A DNA stretch of 32,111 nt from positions 1 through 32,111 of the forward strand of contig RFZO01000005.1 in assembly GCA_009920715.1 (NCBI GenBank), in the 5' to 3' direction. A program made the position numbers and the translations under genes. Positions within the stretch are counted from its first letter, which is position 1. Each line of letters begins with the position of its first letter. The DNA comes from Actinomycetota bacterium (GTDB lineage: Bacteria; Actinomycetota; Acidimicrobiia; Acidimicrobiales; Ilumatobacteraceae). Positions 6,544 to 14,249 of this stretch are shown here, one piece after another. The notes below the pieces were generated by a model. That model was given only the letters and a program-made list of their open reading frames with translations, made no database searches and was not told where the DNA came from.

Positions 6544-6589
6544 CTGCGAAAATGGCCCCCGCGCCGCCGTGGCGCGACTGGGGGACACC

Positions 6590-7801
6590 ATGCCGTTGGA
6601 ACTTGATTTCGGACCCGCCGCCGAGGCCTTCCGCACCGAGGTGCGCGCCTGGCTGGAGGCGAACAAGCCCGCCGAGCTCGTCGGTGTGAATGCCGACGAG
6701 GCACAGCGCGGCCAGCACCCCGCACTCAGCGCGTGGGCGAAGAAGCTGACCGAAGCCGGCTACATGTGCGTCGGATGGCCGAAGGAGTACGGCGGCCGCG
6801 GTCTCACCGGCGTGGAGGTGGCGGTGCTGAACGAGGAGTTCGCCCGCGCGAATGTCCCGCGCATCACGCGGGGCATGGGGGAGTGGCTCGTGGGCCCGTC
6901 CATCATCGTGTGGGGCACCGAGGAACAGAAGCGTCGCTTCCTGCCGCGCATCGTCGACGGCACCGACCGGTACTGCCAGGGCTTCTCGGAACCCGACGCG
7001 GGATCCGACCTCGCGTCGCTGAAGACGCGCGGCGTCATCGACGGTGACGAGGTGGTCATCACCGGCCAGAAGGTGTGGACCTCTGGTGCCACGGAGGCGA
7101 ACATGATGTTCTGCCTGTGCCGCACTGACCAGGACGCCCCGAAGCACGCCGGCATCTCCTACGTGCTGCTCCCGATGTTCAAGGAGGACAAGTCGACGAA
7201 CGGCATCGAGCTGCGCCCGATCCGTCAGCCGCACGGGGCGTCGCACTTCACCGAGACATTCCTCACCGAGTCGCGGGCACCCGTCGACAACATCATCGGC
7301 GGCATGAACAACGGCTGGCGCGTCACCATGACCACCCTCGGCAACGAGCGCGGCGGGAACGCCACCACCCAGCACGTCGAGTTCACCAAGCAGTTCTGGG
7401 CCGCCGTGAAGATGCTGCAGGCCTCCGGCAAGGCGAAGGACCCGTTGATCCGCCAAGAGCTGGCCTGGGCCTACAGCCACGTGGAGATCATGCGGTTCAA
7501 CGGCCTGAAGGTGCTGTCCGAGGTGATCGCACGCAAGGAGCCGGGTCCCGGCGCGTCGGTGAACAAGATGTTCTGGTCGGAGTACGCCCAGAAGTTCTCG
7601 GAGCGCATGATGAACGCCCGCGGCGCCGACGCGATGCTGGCGGCCAACGAGCCCGGCCAGCCCTTCGCGGTGGACCGCTGGACGTCGATGTTCTTCCAGC
7701 ACCGTTCCTCCACGATCTGGGGCGGCACCGCGCAGGTGCAGCGCAACATCGTGGGCGAGAGGGTGCTGGGGCTCCCGAAGGAGCCGGGCCAGAAAGGCTG
7801 A
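6590..7801 (+). CDS. Acyl-CoA dehydrogenase family protein
   Basis: MPLELDFGPAAEAFRTEVRAWLEANKP...QGFSEPDAGSDLASLKTRGVIDGDEVVITGQKVWTSGA...SSTIWGGTAQVQRNIVGERVLGLPKEP. Confidence 0.95.
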   Translation: MPLELDFGPAAEAFRTEVRAWLEANKPAELVGVNADEAQRGQHPALSAWAKKLTEAGYMCVGWPKEYGGRGLTGVEVAVLNEEFARANVPRITRGMGEWLVGPSIIVWGTEEQKRRFLPRIVDGTDRYCQGFSEPDAGSDLASLKTRGVIDGDEVVITGQKVWTSGATEANMMFCLCRTDQDAPKHAGISYVLLPMFKEDKSTNGIELRPIRQPHGASHFTETFLTESRAPVDNIIGGMNNGWRVTMTTLGNERGGNATTQHVEFTKQFWAAVKMLQASGKAKDPLIRQELAWAYSHVEIMRFNGLKVLSEVIARKEPGPGASVNKMFWSEYAQKFSERMMNARGADAMLAANEPGQPFAVDRWTSMFFQHRSSTIWGGTAQVQRNIVGERVLGLPKEPGQKG

Positions 7802-7820: not shown

Positions 7821-8507
7821 TCACATCTCCTCTTCGGCGTCCTTGCCGGTCTCGAAGAAGTCCTTCGCGTCGGTCTGCATGCCCATGCGCTTCTTGTCAC
7901 GGAAGTTCATGGTGGCGCGTGACATCGACCGCATCGCCGCGCGTGAGTTCATGGCGTCGGCCTTCCACGCAGACGTGGCGCCCTGGTCGTAGCCGAAGCG
8001 GGCGGCGTCGGCGTACGCATCCAGTCCGGCAGAGAGGAACACGAACTGCCATCCGTCGGCCGTGCGCTCCGCGATCAGGTTGCGCACCTGCTCGAGGTTG
8101 TATTCGTGGGACTGGTTCTCCTCACCGTCGGTGATGGTGACGAAGATGATGTCGTCCTTCGGCCGGCCGGTGGCCACGCGCGCCTGCTGGTCGACCATGA
8201 CCCGCCCGATCGCGAGTCCGGTGGCGTCCAGCAGGGGAGTGCCGCCCCGCGGAACGTACGAGTGGCGGTCGAGAGAGACCGCCTCCGAGATGGGTGCCCC
8301 CCAGACGACCACCTCCTGGGGATCCTGCGAGTCGAACAGGATGATCGAGATGCGGGCGTCAGAGCCGTTCTGCTGCTGCTCGGTGAGGAAGGTGTTGAAC
8401 CCGCCGATCACGTCGTTGACGATTGACGACATCGACCCCGACCGGTCCAGGAGGACCGCGATGTGGGTGCCGTTCGCTGCGGGCTGGTGGTTGGTGTTCT
8501 GTGTCAT
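7821..8507 (-). CDS. von Willebrand factor type A (VWA) domain protein with intact MIDAS motif
   Basis: THIAVLLDRSGSMSSIVNDVIGGFNTFL (DxSxS), VPRGGTPLLDATG (Thr), FVTITDGEENQS (Asp); ATG 8507 with AAGGAG upstream. Confidence 0.9.
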   Translation of the reverse strand: MTQNTNHQPAANGTHIAVLLDRSGSMSSIVNDVIGGFNTFLTEQQQNGSDARISIILFDSQDPQEVVVWGAPISEAVSLDRHSYVPRGGTPLLDATGLAIGRVMVDQQARVATGRPKDDIIFVTITDGEENQSHEYNLEQVRNLIAERTADGWQFVFLSAGLDAYADAARFGYDQGATSAWKADAMNSRAAMRSMSRATMNFRDKKRMGMQTDAKDFFETGKDAEEEM

Positions 8508-8523
8508 GAGTGTCTCCTTGTCT

Positions 8524-8549
8524 CTCAACCCCGACCGTCGGGGTTTGAG
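8524..8549 (-). promoter_or_regulatory. Stem-loop in the 5' leader of the VWA gene (11 bp, one bulge, 3-nt loop)
   Basis: Plus strand CTCAACCCCGA-CCG-TCGGGGTTTGAG; no U-tract, so not a classical intrinsic terminator; lies just 5' of the VWA RBS. Confidence 0.6.
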
Positions 8550-8565
8550 TAAAGGACACTATAAC
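8543..8565 (-). promoter_or_regulatory. Candidate operator/promoter dyad 1 (GTTATAGT-GTCCTTT-ACTCAAAC on minus strand)
   Basis: 23-bp imperfect dyad, same layout as the dyad at 9434-9456; contains TATAGT -10-like box upstream of the VWA gene. Confidence 0.55.
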
Positions 8566-8576
8566 CAGAACGTGTG

Positions 8577-9323
8577 TCAATCCTTCCGGGGTGACGACCG
8601 GAACCGGATGGGGGGTGTGATCTCCTTGGCTCTGCCCGCCCGGTACAGCATGGGGGGCCGGCCGGGTGTGGGCTGGTCGGAGGACATCACCCCGAGGGGC
8701 TGGACGAAGTTCTTGGTGAGCTCGACCTTGCGCCGGAAGTTGGCCGCGTCGACCTCGTCCTGGAGGAAGGCCTCATAGACCATCCTCAGGTCCGACATGG
8801 TGAACTTGGGCTGGCAGAAGCTGACGGCAATGGGGGTGTCCTCCAGCATGGAGAATGCCCGTGCCCTGGCATCAGCGATGATGCGGTGGTGGTCGAACTC
8901 CAGCACCCTTGAGGCCTGAAGCTGCCGGTAGGGCATGAACCGGGCCTCGACGGAGTGCTTGATGGGTGCGATCTCGCCGGGGTGGGGCAGCAGGGCCAGA
9001 TAGGCGATGGAGAAGGCCCTCCAGCGACTGTCCCGCCCGGGGTCGCCGTAGGCACCCACCTGGTGGAGGTCCTTGTGACGCAGGCTTATGCCAGTCTCCT
9101 CGTGCACTTTCCGCAGGGCGGTGTCCTCCAGGGGTTCCCCCTCCTTGACGGCGCCGCCGGGGAGCGCCCACCTGTTGGAGGAGGCATCAGGTCGGCGCAT
9201 CACCAGCACCTCGAGGCGGTCCTTCGGGGCGATCTCGCGGTCCGGGTTCACGGTCAGCACGACCGTGTCGACATAGACGTAGAAGTCCATCTGGATTTTT
9301 CTCTCGTGCTTCGGCATGCCCAC
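8577..9323 (-). CDS. nrtR: Nudix-domain transcriptional regulator, NrtR-type (Nudix + C-terminal winged HTH)
   Basis: Nudix fold WALPGGAVKEGEPLEDTALRKVHEETGI with altered REUXEE box, then wHTH-like FTMSDLRMVYEAFLQDEVDAANFRRKVELTKNFVQPLG...MLYRAG. Start may be 9323 or the internal Met at 9290. Confidence 0.85.
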   Translation of the reverse strand: MGMPKHERKIQMDFYVYVDTVVLTVNPDREIAPKDRLEVLVMRRPDASSNRWALPGGAVKEGEPLEDTALRKVHEETGISLRHKDLHQVGAYGDPGRDSRWRAFSIAYLALLPHPGEIAPIKHSVEARFMPYRQLQASRVLEFDHHRIIADARARAFSMLEDTPIAVSFCQPKFTMSDLRMVYEAFLQDEVDAANFRRKVELTKNFVQPLGVMSSDQPTPGRPPMLYRAGRAKEITPPIRFRSSPRKD

Positions 9324-9433
9324 AGTGTGCCACCCCCGGGTGTCATGTTTGGGTCAAAGGCTCCCTTTTCGACGTTCGGGTGGCCGGAGACGCGGGAATA
9401 ACACGGATACGGGCCTTGTTCACACACCCCTCC

Positions 9434-9456
9434 GTTATAGTGCGGAGTACCTAAAC
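9434..9456 (+). promoter_or_regulatory. Candidate operator/promoter dyad 2 (GTTATAGT-GCGGAGT-ACCTAAAC)
   Basis: Shares 16/23 positions with dyad 1 including GTTATAGTG; TATAGT -10-like box upstream of the DraG-DSP gene, in the divergent region with nrtR. Confidence 0.55.
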
Positions 9457-9494: not shown

Positions 9495-10982
9495 ATGACC
9501 ACTGATTCCACCCGTTCCCCCCTCAGCCCGCACCGCGCCTCGTACACCCAGCAATTCCGGGCGGTCGGAGCACTCCTCGGGGCCGCAATCGGCGACGCCC
9601 TCGGTGCCCCCTTCGAGTTCAAGGCGGGAGGACTGTTCAGCGCCAGGTTCCCCGAACCCGTCATCGGCGGTGTGGGCGAGATGATCGGCGGTGGCGGATT
9701 CGGATGGGCCCCCGGTGAGTTCACCGACGACACCCAGATGGCCATGGCACTCGCGGAATCACTCATCAGGAACGACGGGCTGGACCTTGACGACTTGTGG
9801 GAGCGTTTCCGTGCGTGGGCCCAGTCGGCCAAGGACGTGGGCATCGTCACCAGCATCGTGTTGTCCCGCGATTCCCGCCACGGCGCGGCCGAGCACGGGC
9901 ACGAGGCCACCAACGGTCGCAGCGCCAGCAACGGGTGCGTGATGCGCGTGGCGCCCGTCGGCATCATCGGGGCGCGCCTGGGCTCGGACAGCACAATTGC
10001 GCTGGCTGCCGAACAGGCCCGCCTGACCCACTTCGACCCCGCCGCCGCCGTCGGGGCTGCGCTCGTGGCCGAGCTGATCCGGCACATCATCGTCACCGGC
10101 GAGTTCCGGGGGGTCGCCGAGGCCGTTCTCGACAGGTTCGCCGCGGAGGGTCATTTCGACGCTGCCGTCGTGGACGGGTACAGACCATTCGTGGCCGGGT
10201 CGTTCGACCCGCTCGCGCCGGGACTGCCCGGCAACGGTTCCGTGTGGACCACGGTCGGCCAGGCGCTGTGGGCCGTGCGCACCACGTCCACGTTCGAGCA
10301 GGCGATGCGCACCGTGATCGATCTTGGCGGCGACACTGACACGGTTGCAGCTGTCACCGGCAGCATCGCGGGCGCTCTCCACGGCGTGCAGCGCATTCCC
10401 GTGCGCTGGACCACCTACGTGCACGGGTATCTCCGCATGCCCGACGGCAGCCAGAAGGAGTACCGCATGCAGGACCTGATCGACGTCGCACGGATGCTCG
10501 TCGGCAAGGAGACATCGCGCATGTCGTACGTGGAGCCGCCCGTCGGGCCCCTGAAGGTGCACCCTGACGGCGTCCACGCGGCGAACCTCGACGGTGCGGC
10601 TCGCGCACCGCGCGACCACGCGGTGGTCACGCTGTGCATGCCCGAGGACAGGTTCCTCCAGCACGTCAACCGGCGCCAGATCTTCATCCGTGACAAGGAG
10701 AACCCCGCCAACGAGGACCTCCTGTTCGTCGTCCGCGACGCGGTGGAGGCGATCGATGCGTTCCTCGCCGAGGGCCGCGAGGTCGTCGTGCACTGCCACG
10801 GCGGCCGCAGCCGCACCGGGCTGGTGCTGAAGGCCTGGTACATGTCGCGTCACGGTGCGAGCCACGACGAGGCGCACGCATGGCTGCGCGGCAGGTGGGA
10901 GCACTACGAGACGTGGACCCAGTCCTTCTGGGATTTCCTGGAGGACGAGTGGACCGCGCACGTTGCGGGGAAGAGGGCCTGA
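9495..10982 (+). CDS. ADP-ribosylglycohydrolase (DraG family) fused to C-terminal dual-specificity/tyrosine phosphatase-like domain
   Basis: DraG motifs GAAIGDALGAPFEF, FTDDTQMAMAL and DLGGDTDTVAAVTGSIAGALHG; C-terminal PTP loop VVVHCHGGRSRTG (HCx5RT); RBS AGGAG at 9486-9490. Confidence 0.9.
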   Translation: MTTDSTRSPLSPHRASYTQQFRAVGALLGAAIGDALGAPFEFKAGGLFSARFPEPVIGGVGEMIGGGGFGWAPGEFTDDTQMAMALAESLIRNDGLDLDDLWERFRAWAQSAKDVGIVTSIVLSRDSRHGAAEHGHEATNGRSASNGCVMRVAPVGIIGARLGSDSTIALAAEQARLTHFDPAAAVGAALVAELIRHIIVTGEFRGVAEAVLDRFAAEGHFDAAVVDGYRPFVAGSFDPLAPGLPGNGSVWTTVGQALWAVRTTSTFEQAMRTVIDLGGDTDTVAAVTGSIAGALHGVQRIPVRWTTYVHGYLRMPDGSQKEYRMQDLIDVARMLVGKETSRMSYVEPPVGPLKVHPDGVHAANLDGAARAPRDHAVVTLCMPEDRFLQHVNRRQIFIRDKENPANEDLLFVVRDAVEAIDAFLAEGREVVVHCHGGRSRTGLVLKAWYMSRHGASHDEAHAWLRGRWEHYETWTQSFWDFLEDEWTAHVAGKRA

Positions 10983-10986
10983 CACC

Positions 10987-12420
10987 GTGATCGACATCAT
11001 GGAGGCCGAGGAGGCGGTGCTGTCCTACCTCGACAAGATCGCCTGCATCGACACCGACATCGACGAGTTCGGCGAGGAGTCCGAGCCGTCCTTCCCGTTG
11101 CGCTTCATCACGCACGAGAACGCAGTCACCTGCACGGCCACTCTCTACACGCGCTTCAACGGTGCGGTGGTGCTGCGGATCGATGCCGACGTGGCGGAGA
11201 CCGACGACAGCGCGTCGATCCGCCAGTGGGCCCTCGACGCTCCCGGTCAGTTGCCCTACGTGCAGATCCGCTACGAGCGCGATTCCGGGGCGGGCAGGGC
11301 CAGGCTCACGGCGACCCACTCACTGTCCGTCGACCATCTCTCGCGGTTCGTGCTGGAGCAGGTGGTGTCCTCGTTCGACTTCATCGTGCCCCAGTGGGTC
11401 ACGAAGGCCGGGCAGGTGGAGGCAGTGGCGGAGATGAACGCCCAGCGCCAGCGCCAGCGCATCGAGGACGCCGCCCGGGCCGGCGCGGAGGAGGACCACA
11501 GCGACGACTCCGAGGACCCGTTCGGCCTCGACGAGGACGCACCCACCACCGCGACAACCGTGCACGAGGCGAAGGGAATCGACGCTGTCCTGTCCGAACT
11601 GGCGGCGCTCATCGGTCTCGAACCCGTGAAGAGGCTGGTGCGCGATCTCGCCCACGTGCAGCAGGTCGCCTCCCTGCGCGAGCGGGCCGGGCTGAGGCCG
11701 TTGCGTCCGTCGCCGCACCTGGTGTTCACGGGCAACCCCGGCACGGGGAAGACCACCGTGGCGCGTCTCATCGGGCGTCTCTACAAGGAGATGGGACTTC
11801 TCCGCCGGGGGCACGTGGTGGAGACCGGCCGGCAGGGATTGATCGGCGGCTACGTGGGGCAGACGGCCATCAAGACCGCCGAGGTGCTGAAGTCGGCGGA
11901 GGGCGGTGTGCTGTTCATCGACGAGGCGTACTCCCTCGCGGTCGGACACCATCTCGACTACGGCAAGGAGGCCATCGAGACGATCCTCGCCCACATGGAG
12001 AACCACCGCGGCGAGATCGCGGTGGTGGTGGCGGGATACCCGGACAAGATGAAGGACTTCCTCGCCATGAACCCGGGCCTCGCCAGCCGCTTCGACCACA
12101 CGCTCCAGTTTCCCGACTTCTCGAACGAGGAGCTCGTGGAGGTGTTCGAGCTGTTCGCGTCCGCGCACGATTACGTCGTCACCCCCGCCGCCCGACAGCA
12201 CCTCGCCGCACTCGTGCGCAGGTGGCCCCGGTCGGCCACGTTCGCGAACGCACGCGAGGTGCGCAAGCTCTTCAACGACGTGGTGATGCTGCACTCGGCT
12301 GCAGTGGTGGAGGGCGGCATGAGCCTCGGCACGGGGCTCGTCGAGATTCATCCCTGTCACTTCCCCGAGGAGAACGGGTTGGTGGGGGCGGGTTCGTCCC
12401 GCCGTTTCGGCTACGTCTGA
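10987..12420 (+). CDS. AAA+ ATPase, CbbX/SpoVK/EccA-like, with an additional N-terminal domain (possibly YbjN/secretion-chaperone-like)
   Basis: Walker A GNPGTGKTTVARL, pore-loop-like GLIGGYVGQT, Walker B GGVLFIDEAYSL, Arg finger region GLASRFDHTLQFPDFS; GTG start 4 bp after the preceding stop (or ATG 10999). Confidence 0.9.
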   Translation: MIDIMEAEEAVLSYLDKIACIDTDIDEFGEESEPSFPLRFITHENAVTCTATLYTRFNGAVVLRIDADVAETDDSASIRQWALDAPGQLPYVQIRYERDSGAGRARLTATHSLSVDHLSRFVLEQVVSSFDFIVPQWVTKAGQVEAVAEMNAQRQRQRIEDAARAGAEEDHSDDSEDPFGLDEDAPTTATTVHEAKGIDAVLSELAALIGLEPVKRLVRDLAHVQQVASLRERAGLRPLRPSPHLVFTGNPGTGKTTVARLIGRLYKEMGLLRRGHVVETGRQGLIGGYVGQTAIKTAEVLKSAEGGVLFIDEAYSLAVGHHLDYGKEAIETILAHMENHRGEIAVVVAGYPDKMKDFLAMNPGLASRFDHTLQFPDFSNEELVEVFELFASAHDYVVTPAARQHLAALVRRWPRSATFANAREVRKLFNDVVMLHSAAVVEGGMSLGTGLVEIHPCHFPEENGLVGAGSSRRFGYV

Positions 12421-12491: not shown

Positions 12492-14249
12492 GTGCGAACC
12501 GGTGCGATCAGGCGGCTTGACGAACGTCTGCATCCCCGCGGGGATGCTGTCGCCGGCACCGCATCAGGAGCACTACAGCGAAGAGTTGTCCTCGCGGCGG
12601 CCGCCGTGGCCGGGTTGGTGTCCCTCATGGTGGCACTGCGTCAGCACGGACCCACGGTGCACCCTGACGAGTGGGGTTTCCTGCTGAACGGTCGGGTGAT
12701 CATGGGGCATTCCGAGGCCCAGATCCCCACCGGCAGCTTCTACCCGGCCGGGTTCGGCTTGGTCACGGGTCCGCTCGCCGAGATCACCGGCTCGCTGGCC
12801 GGCGCCTACAGGGGGACACTGATCGTGAACTTCCTGCTGTGCGTGCTGGTGGGGGTGACCGCTCACCGTGTGGCGCGCCGGGTGTTCGGGGCGGGGGAGA
12901 CCACGGCCACGGTTGCAGGGGCACTCGCGTTCGTCGTGCCCGGCACCATCGTGACGAGCCTGTTCGCATGGCCCGAGACGGCCGCCCGTCTCGCGTTCCT
13001 GCTGTTCGTGCTCGGCTTCCATTCAGTCGCGCGCGACAGGCGGCCCGCCAGGATGATCGTCCTCGGTTTCGCGGTGGGGCTCATGCCGGCACTGCACGGC
13101 AGGTTCACGCTGGTGCTGCCGGTTGTCTGCCTGGTGTTTTTGGCGTGGGGGCTGAGACGGGATGTGTCCCGCGTCGCGGCGGTCACCGCGTGCGCGGCGA
13201 CAACCGCGGGATACGTGCTCAGTTACCTGCTGAACAGGTTCGTGAAAGGGGCGCTGTACGGGGCCTCCTACGACCAGGAGAACAGGTTGCTGCGCAGGCT
13301 GGTCGACCCGTCGCTGTGGCCCGCCCTCCTGCGCACGATGACCGGCCAGAGCTGGTACCTGGTGGCAACCTCGGGCGGTCTCGTGGCCGTGTCCGCGGCG
13401 TGGATGGTGTCGCGGGTGCGCGCCGAAGGCGGCCTGCGCACGGTCCGCACCGATGCGGCACGGTTGACGTGCCTCGTGGTGGTGGCGAACACGCTGCTCC
13501 TCGTGTTCACCGGCGGACTGCAGCTGCTCTTCGGCAACCGCGGTGACCACCTCATCTACGGGCGGTACGTGGAGATACTCGTGCCCGTGCTCATCGTCGC
13601 CGGGTGCGCGGCTCTCGAGCATTCGAGGCTGCTCTCGTTGAGGGCGTGGCTGGCGGGCTCAGTTGCCATCGTGGGTGTGGCCCTTCTGTACGTGCTCATC
13701 GACATGGGTGACGGTGTGAAAGGGGGATGGTCCCGCAACGACATCGTCTTCCCGAACATCGTCGGCACCGACGCGATGCGCTACCTCGTCACCCCCGGGC
13801 TGGTCACCTTCGGCATCGCGTTCGCGCTCGCGGGCGCGGTGCTGTGGTGGGTGTTCCGGAGGGGCGGCATGTGGGCACCCGTGCTGATGGTCGTGCTCCT
13901 CGCCGCGGGGTCGTCGTGGTCCGCGCAGCGCAGCATCTTCAGCCGAACCGACGACCTGCGCGCGACCAAGGCCACGGTGGAGTTTGTGCGGCAGTCAGGA
14001 GGCACGCTGATCGGGTTCGACGAGGGGGTCCGTAACGACCGCTCGTACTACTACCTGCGCTACAAACTGCACCCGGTGGCCCTCGTCAGGTTCGACATCT
14101 CGGGACCCGACGCCGTCATCCCGGCTGAGTACTCGTGCGTGTACGGCTTCCCGAACAAGCCCCCGTCGGACGGGGAGTGGCGCATCGTCGCCGATGAGAT
14201 ACCCCTCAAACGGGTACTGTGGCAACGGACCGGCACCGACCGTTGTTGA
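12492..14249 (+). CDS. Polytopic membrane protein, GT-C glycosyltransferase-like
   Basis: GTG start; many hydrophobic segments; N-terminal LRQHGPTVHPDEWGF loop with acidic residues reminiscent of GT-C proteins. Confidence 0.7.
   Translation: MRTGAIRRLDERLHPRGDAVAGTASGALQRRVVLAAAAVAGLVSLMVALRQHGPTVHPDEWGFLLNGRVIMGHSEAQIPTGSFYPAGFGLVTGPLAEITGSLAGAYRGTLIVNFLLCVLVGVTAHRVARRVFGAGETTATVAGALAFVVPGTIVTSLFAWPETAARLAFLLFVLGFHSVARDRRPARMIVLGFAVGLMPALHGRFTLVLPVVCLVFLAWGLRRDVSRVAAVTACAATTAGYVLSYLLNRFVKGALYGASYDQENRLLRRLVDPSLWPALLRTMTGQSWYLVATSGGLVAVSAAWMVSRVRAEGGLRTVRTDAARLTCLVVVANTLLLVFTGGLQLLFGNRGDHLIYGRYVEILVPVLIVAGCAALEHSRLLSLRAWLAGSVAIVGVALLYVLIDMGDGVKGGWSRNDIVFPNIVGTDAMRYLVTPGLVTFGIAFALAGAVLWWVFRRGGMWAPVLMVVLLAAGSSWSAQRSIFSRTDDLRATKATVEFVRQSGGTLIGFDEGVRNDRSYYYLRYKLHPVALVRFDISGPDAVIPAEYSCVYGFPNKPPSDGEWRIVADEIPLKRVLWQRTGTDRC

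Follow-up and report, generated by a model that had tools for sequence, protein, structure and literature searches.

An NrtR-type regulator gene and its predicted 23-bp operators at an ADP-ribosylglycohydrolase locus of the Ilumatobacteraceae

Genes and dyads of the nrtR locus

The window (the whole 32,111-nt stretch of DNA that was analysed, with a G+C content of 0.68) contains an nrtR-type regulator gene placed between a VWA-domain gene and a gene for an ADP-ribosylglycohydrolase (ARG) fused to a phosphatase (DSP). The genes of the locus are:

8577..9323, minus strand: nrtR-type regulator, Nudix domain and NrtR winged helix; its start is likely the ATG at 9317, in agreement with the starts of the orthologues
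7821..8507, minus strand: VWA-domain protein (predicted chaperone), predicted output of site 1; PF00092/PF13519, E ~0.001-0.002, below the curated cut-off
9495..10982, plus strand: DraG-type ARG fused to a DSP phosphatase, predicted output of site 2; PF03747 (9e-64) and PF00782 (2e-10)
10987..12420, plus strand: AAA+ ATPase of the CbbX/SpoVK/EccA type; PF00004 and TIGR02881 (2e-76)
6569-7801, plus strand: acyl-CoA dehydrogenase, flanking the locus
12492-14249, plus strand: membrane glycosyltransferase-like gene, flanking the locus; weak PMT_2 match only

The VWA protein carries the metal-site motif DRSGSMS, and its homologues are conserved in relatives. The AAA+ ATPase, a neighbour also found in some relatives, is likely co-transcribed with ARG-DSP. 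Its N-terminal 200 residues (window positions 10987-11640) matched no Pfam family and might form a chaperone-like domain such as PMC9503650 describes. No ADP-ribosyltransferase gene was found among the annotated neighbours of the locus, and PADLOC returned weak AAA and Nudix matches only.

The original prediction had described two 23-bp dyads, one upstream of the VWA gene on the minus strand and one upstream of ARG-DSP on the plus strand, sharing 16 of 23 positions and the same 8-7-8 layout. Both are present exactly as described; a third dyad closer to nrtR, as well as a second register of site 1, had been missed:

8543..8565, minus strand: site 1, candidate operator dyad, GTTATAGT-GTCCTTT-ACTCAAAC, that is GTTATAGTGTCCTTTACTCAAAC read from 8565 to 8543; 35 nt upstream of the VWA ATG (8507)
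8549..8571, minus strand: alternative overlapping register of site 1, GTTCTGGTT-ATAGT-GTCCTTTAC; rank 1 in the motif scan
9434..9456, plus strand: site 2, candidate operator dyad, GTTATAGT-GCGGAGT-ACCTAAAC, that is GTTATAGTGCGGAGTACCTAAAC; 38 nt upstream of the ARG-DSP ATG (9495)
9347..9369, minus strand: site 3, nrtR-proximal dyad, AAAAGGGAGCCTTTGACCCAAAC on the minus strand and GTTTGGGTCAAAGGCTCCCTTTT on the plus strand; 29 nt upstream of the likely nrtR ATG (9317)

With up to 3 mismatches allowed, the pattern GTTATAGT-N7-ACYATAAC matched only sites 1 and 2 within the 32-kb window, where 0.01 matches are expected from dinucleotide shuffles. A genome-wide scan, which had been proposed as a check, found that the same two sites are the only 23-mers within 2 mismatches of this pattern in the 2.48-Mb draft genome; one extra, weaker match with 3 mismatches lies on contig C11. 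In the closest relative (L055), site 1 is kept as GTTATAGTAGCCTTTACTCATTC, and the 8543 register is preferred because the left half of the 8549 register is not preserved there. The comparison with L055 covers site 1, as the contig ends inside nrtR and the ARG copy is cut too. Site 3 is new here, and its simplest reading is that of a probable autoregulatory operator. The divergent nrtR/ARG-DSP region would therefore have two operators, one per direction, with site 2 serving ARG-DSP.

A palindromic motif learned from related loci

Orthologues of the regulator were searched for in 201 genomes of the same family, and the flanking DNA was compared after gene calling. The orthologues mostly show 56-64% identity within the genus, with paralogues at 39-43% further out. 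A symmetric motif was then trained on other nrtR loci only, the window and its closest relative being excluded. A first EM run on VWA and ARG upstream regions recovered a 23-bp palindrome with ATT..AAT ends that penalised the GTT..AAC sites of the window, and this penalty was resolved by adding nrtR-upstream regions and distant NrtR loci to the training set. The learned motif is a 23-bp palindrome with the consensus ATTATGGTC-ATAAT-GACCATAAT. Its log-likelihood is 328.5 at width 23, compared with 302.0, 207.7 and 250.1 at widths 21, 22 and 24, respectively; width 25 is slightly higher in raw likelihood (336.7), with the same consensus and one more base per side.

When the window was scanned with this motif, the top four of 32,089 positions were 8549 (17.8 bits), 8543 (17.7 bits), 9434 (12.6 bits) and 9347 (12.1 bits), while the fifth scored 3.2. 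Sites 2 and 3 are imperfect dyads, 5 bits below site 1, and the numbers of matches expected per 32 kb under a first-order Markov null are 0.016, 0.10 and 0.14 at the strength of sites 1, 2 and 3, respectively. Another palindrome, at 8506-8528 over the VWA start region, was rejected (final-motif score of 3.1, not conserved). A looser pattern gave 70 matches per strand in the genome compared with 37 in the control; as only three further places lie within 2 mismatches, a wider regulon in this genome is not claimed on the strength of this excess.

Within the genus, the locus occupies a single chromosomal site, with the order ACAD-VWA-nrtR-ARG-AAA-GT in the window, and its parts are missing from one locus or another: VWA from L036, L037 and L042, ARG-DSP from L038, L039 and L041, and AAA from L040 and L043-L045. 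The sites follow the genes. The three loci lacking VWA have no VWA-side site, and the three lacking ARG-DSP have no ARG site but do have the VWA site, with the nrtR-proximal site kept in both of those that were scanned (L038 and L041). Homologues of site 2 are present in L036, L037, L040, L043 and L044, and nrtR-proximal dyads homologous to site 3 in these same loci as well as in L046, L047 and L049; L042 also carries dyads, whose position does not align cleanly with the other ARG sites. In leave-group-out scans, the top motif matches fell in the nrtR-adjacent intergenic regions of most loci, including those with other cargo. Exceptions are L047, where the best match precedes a 216-aa protein at 6601-7251, and L050, L062 and L067, whose regulators are divergent and where the motif is not the top match beside nrtR. 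A pattern scan of 26 genomes of the genus gave ten matches, nine of them at nrtR loci.

Further away, nrtR genes adjoining a zinc dehydrogenase gene have paired sites of the type GTTCTGGTC-N5-GACCAGAAC, about 33 bp apart, one of each pair overlapping the nrtR start region. Because these loci keep such sites beside nrtR, the motif appears to track the regulator. In L060, where nrtR comes after the ARG gene, GTTATAGTCGTAAGGACCATTAC is found upstream of ARG. No clear site was found beside the gene for a remote Nudix regulator in L005 (Asticcacaulis). The dyads, whose conservation at orthologous loci the original prediction had made the test of its claim, are thus conserved; its proposal that they are operators of the Nudix regulator gains support from comparative genomics, the window-blind motif ranking them top and the palindrome lying beside nrtR in most loci.

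Promoter elements at the dyads

The left halves of sites 1 and 2 each contain a -10-like hexamer, preceded by a variant of a promoter box found in the genus (GACACACCC):

8558..8563, minus strand: -10-like TATAGT in the left half of site 1, within a TGACACAC-N8-TATNNT architecture
8570..8578, minus strand: GACACACGT, variant of the GACACACCC promoter box, 6 nt upstream of the site 1 hexamer
9436..9441, plus strand: -10-like TATAGT in the left half of site 2, within CACACACCC-N6-TATAGT
9421..9429, plus strand: CACACACCC, variant of the GACACACCC promoter box, 6 nt upstream of the site 2 hexamer

A canonical sigma-70 promoter with a -35/-10 pair was looked for at the dyad promoters, and none was found. 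When genomes of the genus were searched for GACACACCC-N{5,7}-TANNNT, the gap was N6 in nearly every listed case, and a search for TGACACAC-N{7,15}-TATNNT gave N8 in most, the single match in the genome studied here being site 1. Twenty such places were taken away from the nrtR loci, and in 19 of them a plausible start codon follows within 1-82 nt, in some cases at the distance of a leaderless transcript, which makes TANNNT a credible -10 element. At the dyads, 12 of the 13 orthologous sites have TANNNT at an offset of -4 to +2 from the first base of the dyad, which supports the prediction that the -10/start region is occluded. Of the overlap put forward in the original prediction, the position therefore stands, backed by these sites and by the promoter architecture of the genus, while the word TATAGT is found at the sites of this genome and its nearest relative only; what is conserved more widely is the palindrome.

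Throughout the genus, genes are preceded by a GACACACCC box that keeps a constant distance of 6 nt to TANNNT, a promoter class without a canonical -35 element. WhiA was considered as the reader of the GACAC box and rejected, as none of the 26 genomes of the genus that were tested has its HTH family (PF02650), which does match in control genomes. At one further locus (L083, G043:C15:45660-47560), the promoter of a VWA-type gene has the layout GACACACCC-N6-TANNNT and is directly followed by another palindrome, TAACACTTAATTAGTGTTA; this gene is perhaps under another regulator.

The regulator and its predicted mode of action

The regulator matches PF00293 (59.6 bits, cut-off 21.1; 4e-16) and PF21906 (48.7 bits, cut-off 27; 8e-13) above the curated cut-offs, and its relatives in the PDB by sequence are Shewanella NrtR (3gz5/3gz6) and AraR (5bs6). 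BtAraR and Shewanella NrtR have the same two-domain architecture but other target genes, and in the case of AraR also another ligand. In the clade of the window, the Nudix box reads RKVHEETG: the first Glu of REUXEE is lost and the other two are kept, whereas more distant members keep this metal ligand (RELREETG-type). Such a degenerate box fits a sensor role. Longer NrtR-like proteins, of 417-433 aa (L053:5270-6571 and L054:5517-6770), occur in other genera of the family and have additional, unassigned sequence around the Nudix domain and winged helix.

The closest characterised counterpart is NrtR from M. smegmatis (MsNrtR, MSMEG_3198), an autorepressor which binds GTTTTCGA-N7-TCGAAAAC and is released by ADP-ribose (PMC6800001). 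Both proteins combine a Nudix domain with a winged helix and have a degenerate Nudix box. Five of the six DNA-contact residues of MsNrtR are conserved, D167, N170, R173, K179 and R196 corresponding to D192, N195, R198, K204 and R222 here, and the sixth (T169) is changed to A194; this correspondence was obtained by counting residues from the D-x-x-N-F-R-R motif and from the invariant GRP, not by aligning the protein directly with MsNrtR. The operators share the 8-7-8 palindromic layout with a GTT start and an AAC end, while the inner half-site is TATAGT/ATGGTC here and TTTCGA in M. smegmatis, and the autorepression of MsNrtR (PMC6800001) has its counterpart in the probable autoregulation from the predicted site 3. 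The two differ in their outputs, which are nadABC (NAD synthesis) in M. smegmatis (PMC6800001) and ARG-DSP, AAA and VWA here. The locus does not fit an NAD-biosynthesis NrtR regulon, whose targets would be genes of NAD synthesis or salvage: no place in the genome other than the two local sites gave a strong match, and annotation of the neighbours gave ARG-DSP, VWA, AAA and metabolic genes.

The dyads are very probably operators of a local NrtR-type repressor of VWA, ARG-DSP(-AAA) and its own gene, which would be released by an ADP-ribose-type ligand. The analysis gives evidence for the DNA side of this model, namely for the sites and their conservation, for their association with nrtR and with the output genes, for the overlap with a conserved -10-like element, and for the conserved DNA-contact residues. 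That the regulator physically binds, that it represses and does not activate, that its ligand is ADP-ribose, and what triggers it biologically are what we infer. A dimer of the regulator would bind 23-bp palindromes of the type RTTMTRGTC-N5-GACYAKAAY, covering the -10 of the VWA promoter at site 1, that of the ARG-DSP(-AAA) promoter at site 2, and the upstream region of its own gene at site 3. Bound, it would shut these promoters, so that repression is the default. It would be released once an ADP-ribose-type ligand occupies the degenerate Nudix domain, and because of this the genes for ADP-ribose removal would be induced when ADP-ribose adducts or ADP-ribose accumulate. With ARG-DSP, AAA and VWA made, ADP-ribose would be removed and repression would return.

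It is rather unlikely that the regulator binds the dyads to activate transcription, or that it is a repressor with NAD+ as co-repressor instead of one released by ADP-ribose. A related regulator of C. glutamicum (NdnR/NrtR) reportedly bound better with NAD+, as cited in PMC6800001, so that a ligand might act in the opposite direction here; ADP-ribose, however, antagonises both MsNrtR and S. suis NrtR (PMC6800001), and the overlap of the dyads with a -10-like element is a position typical of repression. The shared words could also be two similar -10 elements with incidental symmetry, given that TATAGT fits TANNNT and that both sites have the GACACACCC-N6-TANNNT layout of the genus. This is very unlikely, as the conserved unit is a palindrome of odd width (23 bp) found de novo, which in relatives of high G+C content occurs without the GACACACCC box and beside other genes. 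In relatives, the position of the -10 element with respect to the dyad varies by several bases, which makes them separable as signals. It is also very unlikely that another transcription factor, encoded elsewhere, binds the dyads, with nrtR as a mere neighbour: palindromes of about 20 bp are used by many regulators, but nrtR is the constant element across VWA, ARG-DSP and zinc dehydrogenase cargo, the frame of the palindrome matches the characterised MsNrtR site (PMC6800001), and the strong matches in the genus are almost all at nrtR loci. Chance likeness of AT-rich intergenic DNA, to which site 3 alone could be ascribed in the blind 32-kb scan (0.14 matches expected, not significant), can be set aside, as conservation effectively excludes it for sites 1 and 2 and the 171-bp intergenic stretch is expected to hold at most 0.0007 matches of site 3 strength under the Markov null, or no more than 0.005 when the base composition of the stretch itself is taken as background.

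As probable operators of an NrtR-type repressor, the dyads would add regulatory sites to a known kind of system. ARG-centred conflict systems regulated by Nudix or WYL proteins, reversing ADP-ribosylation by viral enzymes, were predicted in 2022 by comparative genomics (PMC9503650, section 3.8). Several parts described there are found here: the fusion of ARG with a DSP/R-P phosphatase (PF03747 and PF00782 in one protein), a Nudix-HTH regulator next door whose negative action is predicted there and inferred here, a vWA gene (here the sub-threshold match with DRSGSMS), and the modular gain and loss of parts. In the literature searched, this was the sole paper to name NrtR along with ADP-ribosylglycohydrolase. 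That section gives no operators, and we add candidate operators, a third dyad and the AAA+ neighbour. NrtR operators and ARG systems are thus both of known kinds, and what appears to be new is a well-supported operator motif with a probably autoregulatory site 3. In PMC9503650, the regulation of these systems is assumed, the prediction being made from gene neighbourhoods; a defined operator offers a direct readout, since a reporter with site 1 or site 2 would reveal the switching signal (ADP-ribose, NAD+ or phage infection), and the motif allows further regulon members to be assigned in related genomes.

We tentatively suggest that this NrtR clade may control a regulon of modular, interchangeable parts whose place in the chromosome is fixed. 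Each output gene would bring its own 23-bp operator and, within the genus, a promoter of the class GACACACCC-N6-TANNNT, matched here to no known sigma factor or activator. The outputs meant are ARG-DSP and VWA, joined in relatives by a stand-alone phosphatase with an HDAC-like protein, a TPR protein and the zinc dehydrogenase.

Strong copies of the operator are found at L047:6536-6558, L046:7987-8009 and L046:1363-1385. The genes that these copies precede in the two loci encode a stand-alone DSP-type phosphatase in L046 and its homologue of 216 aa in L047, with an HDAC-like protein (PF00850) coming next, and also a TPR protein, which suggests additional predicted regulon members. In the genus members L050 and L051, a second NrtR and ARG-DSP pair has a differently spaced palindrome, TTCGTCA-CCATAT-TGACGACAA, directly upstream of ARG.
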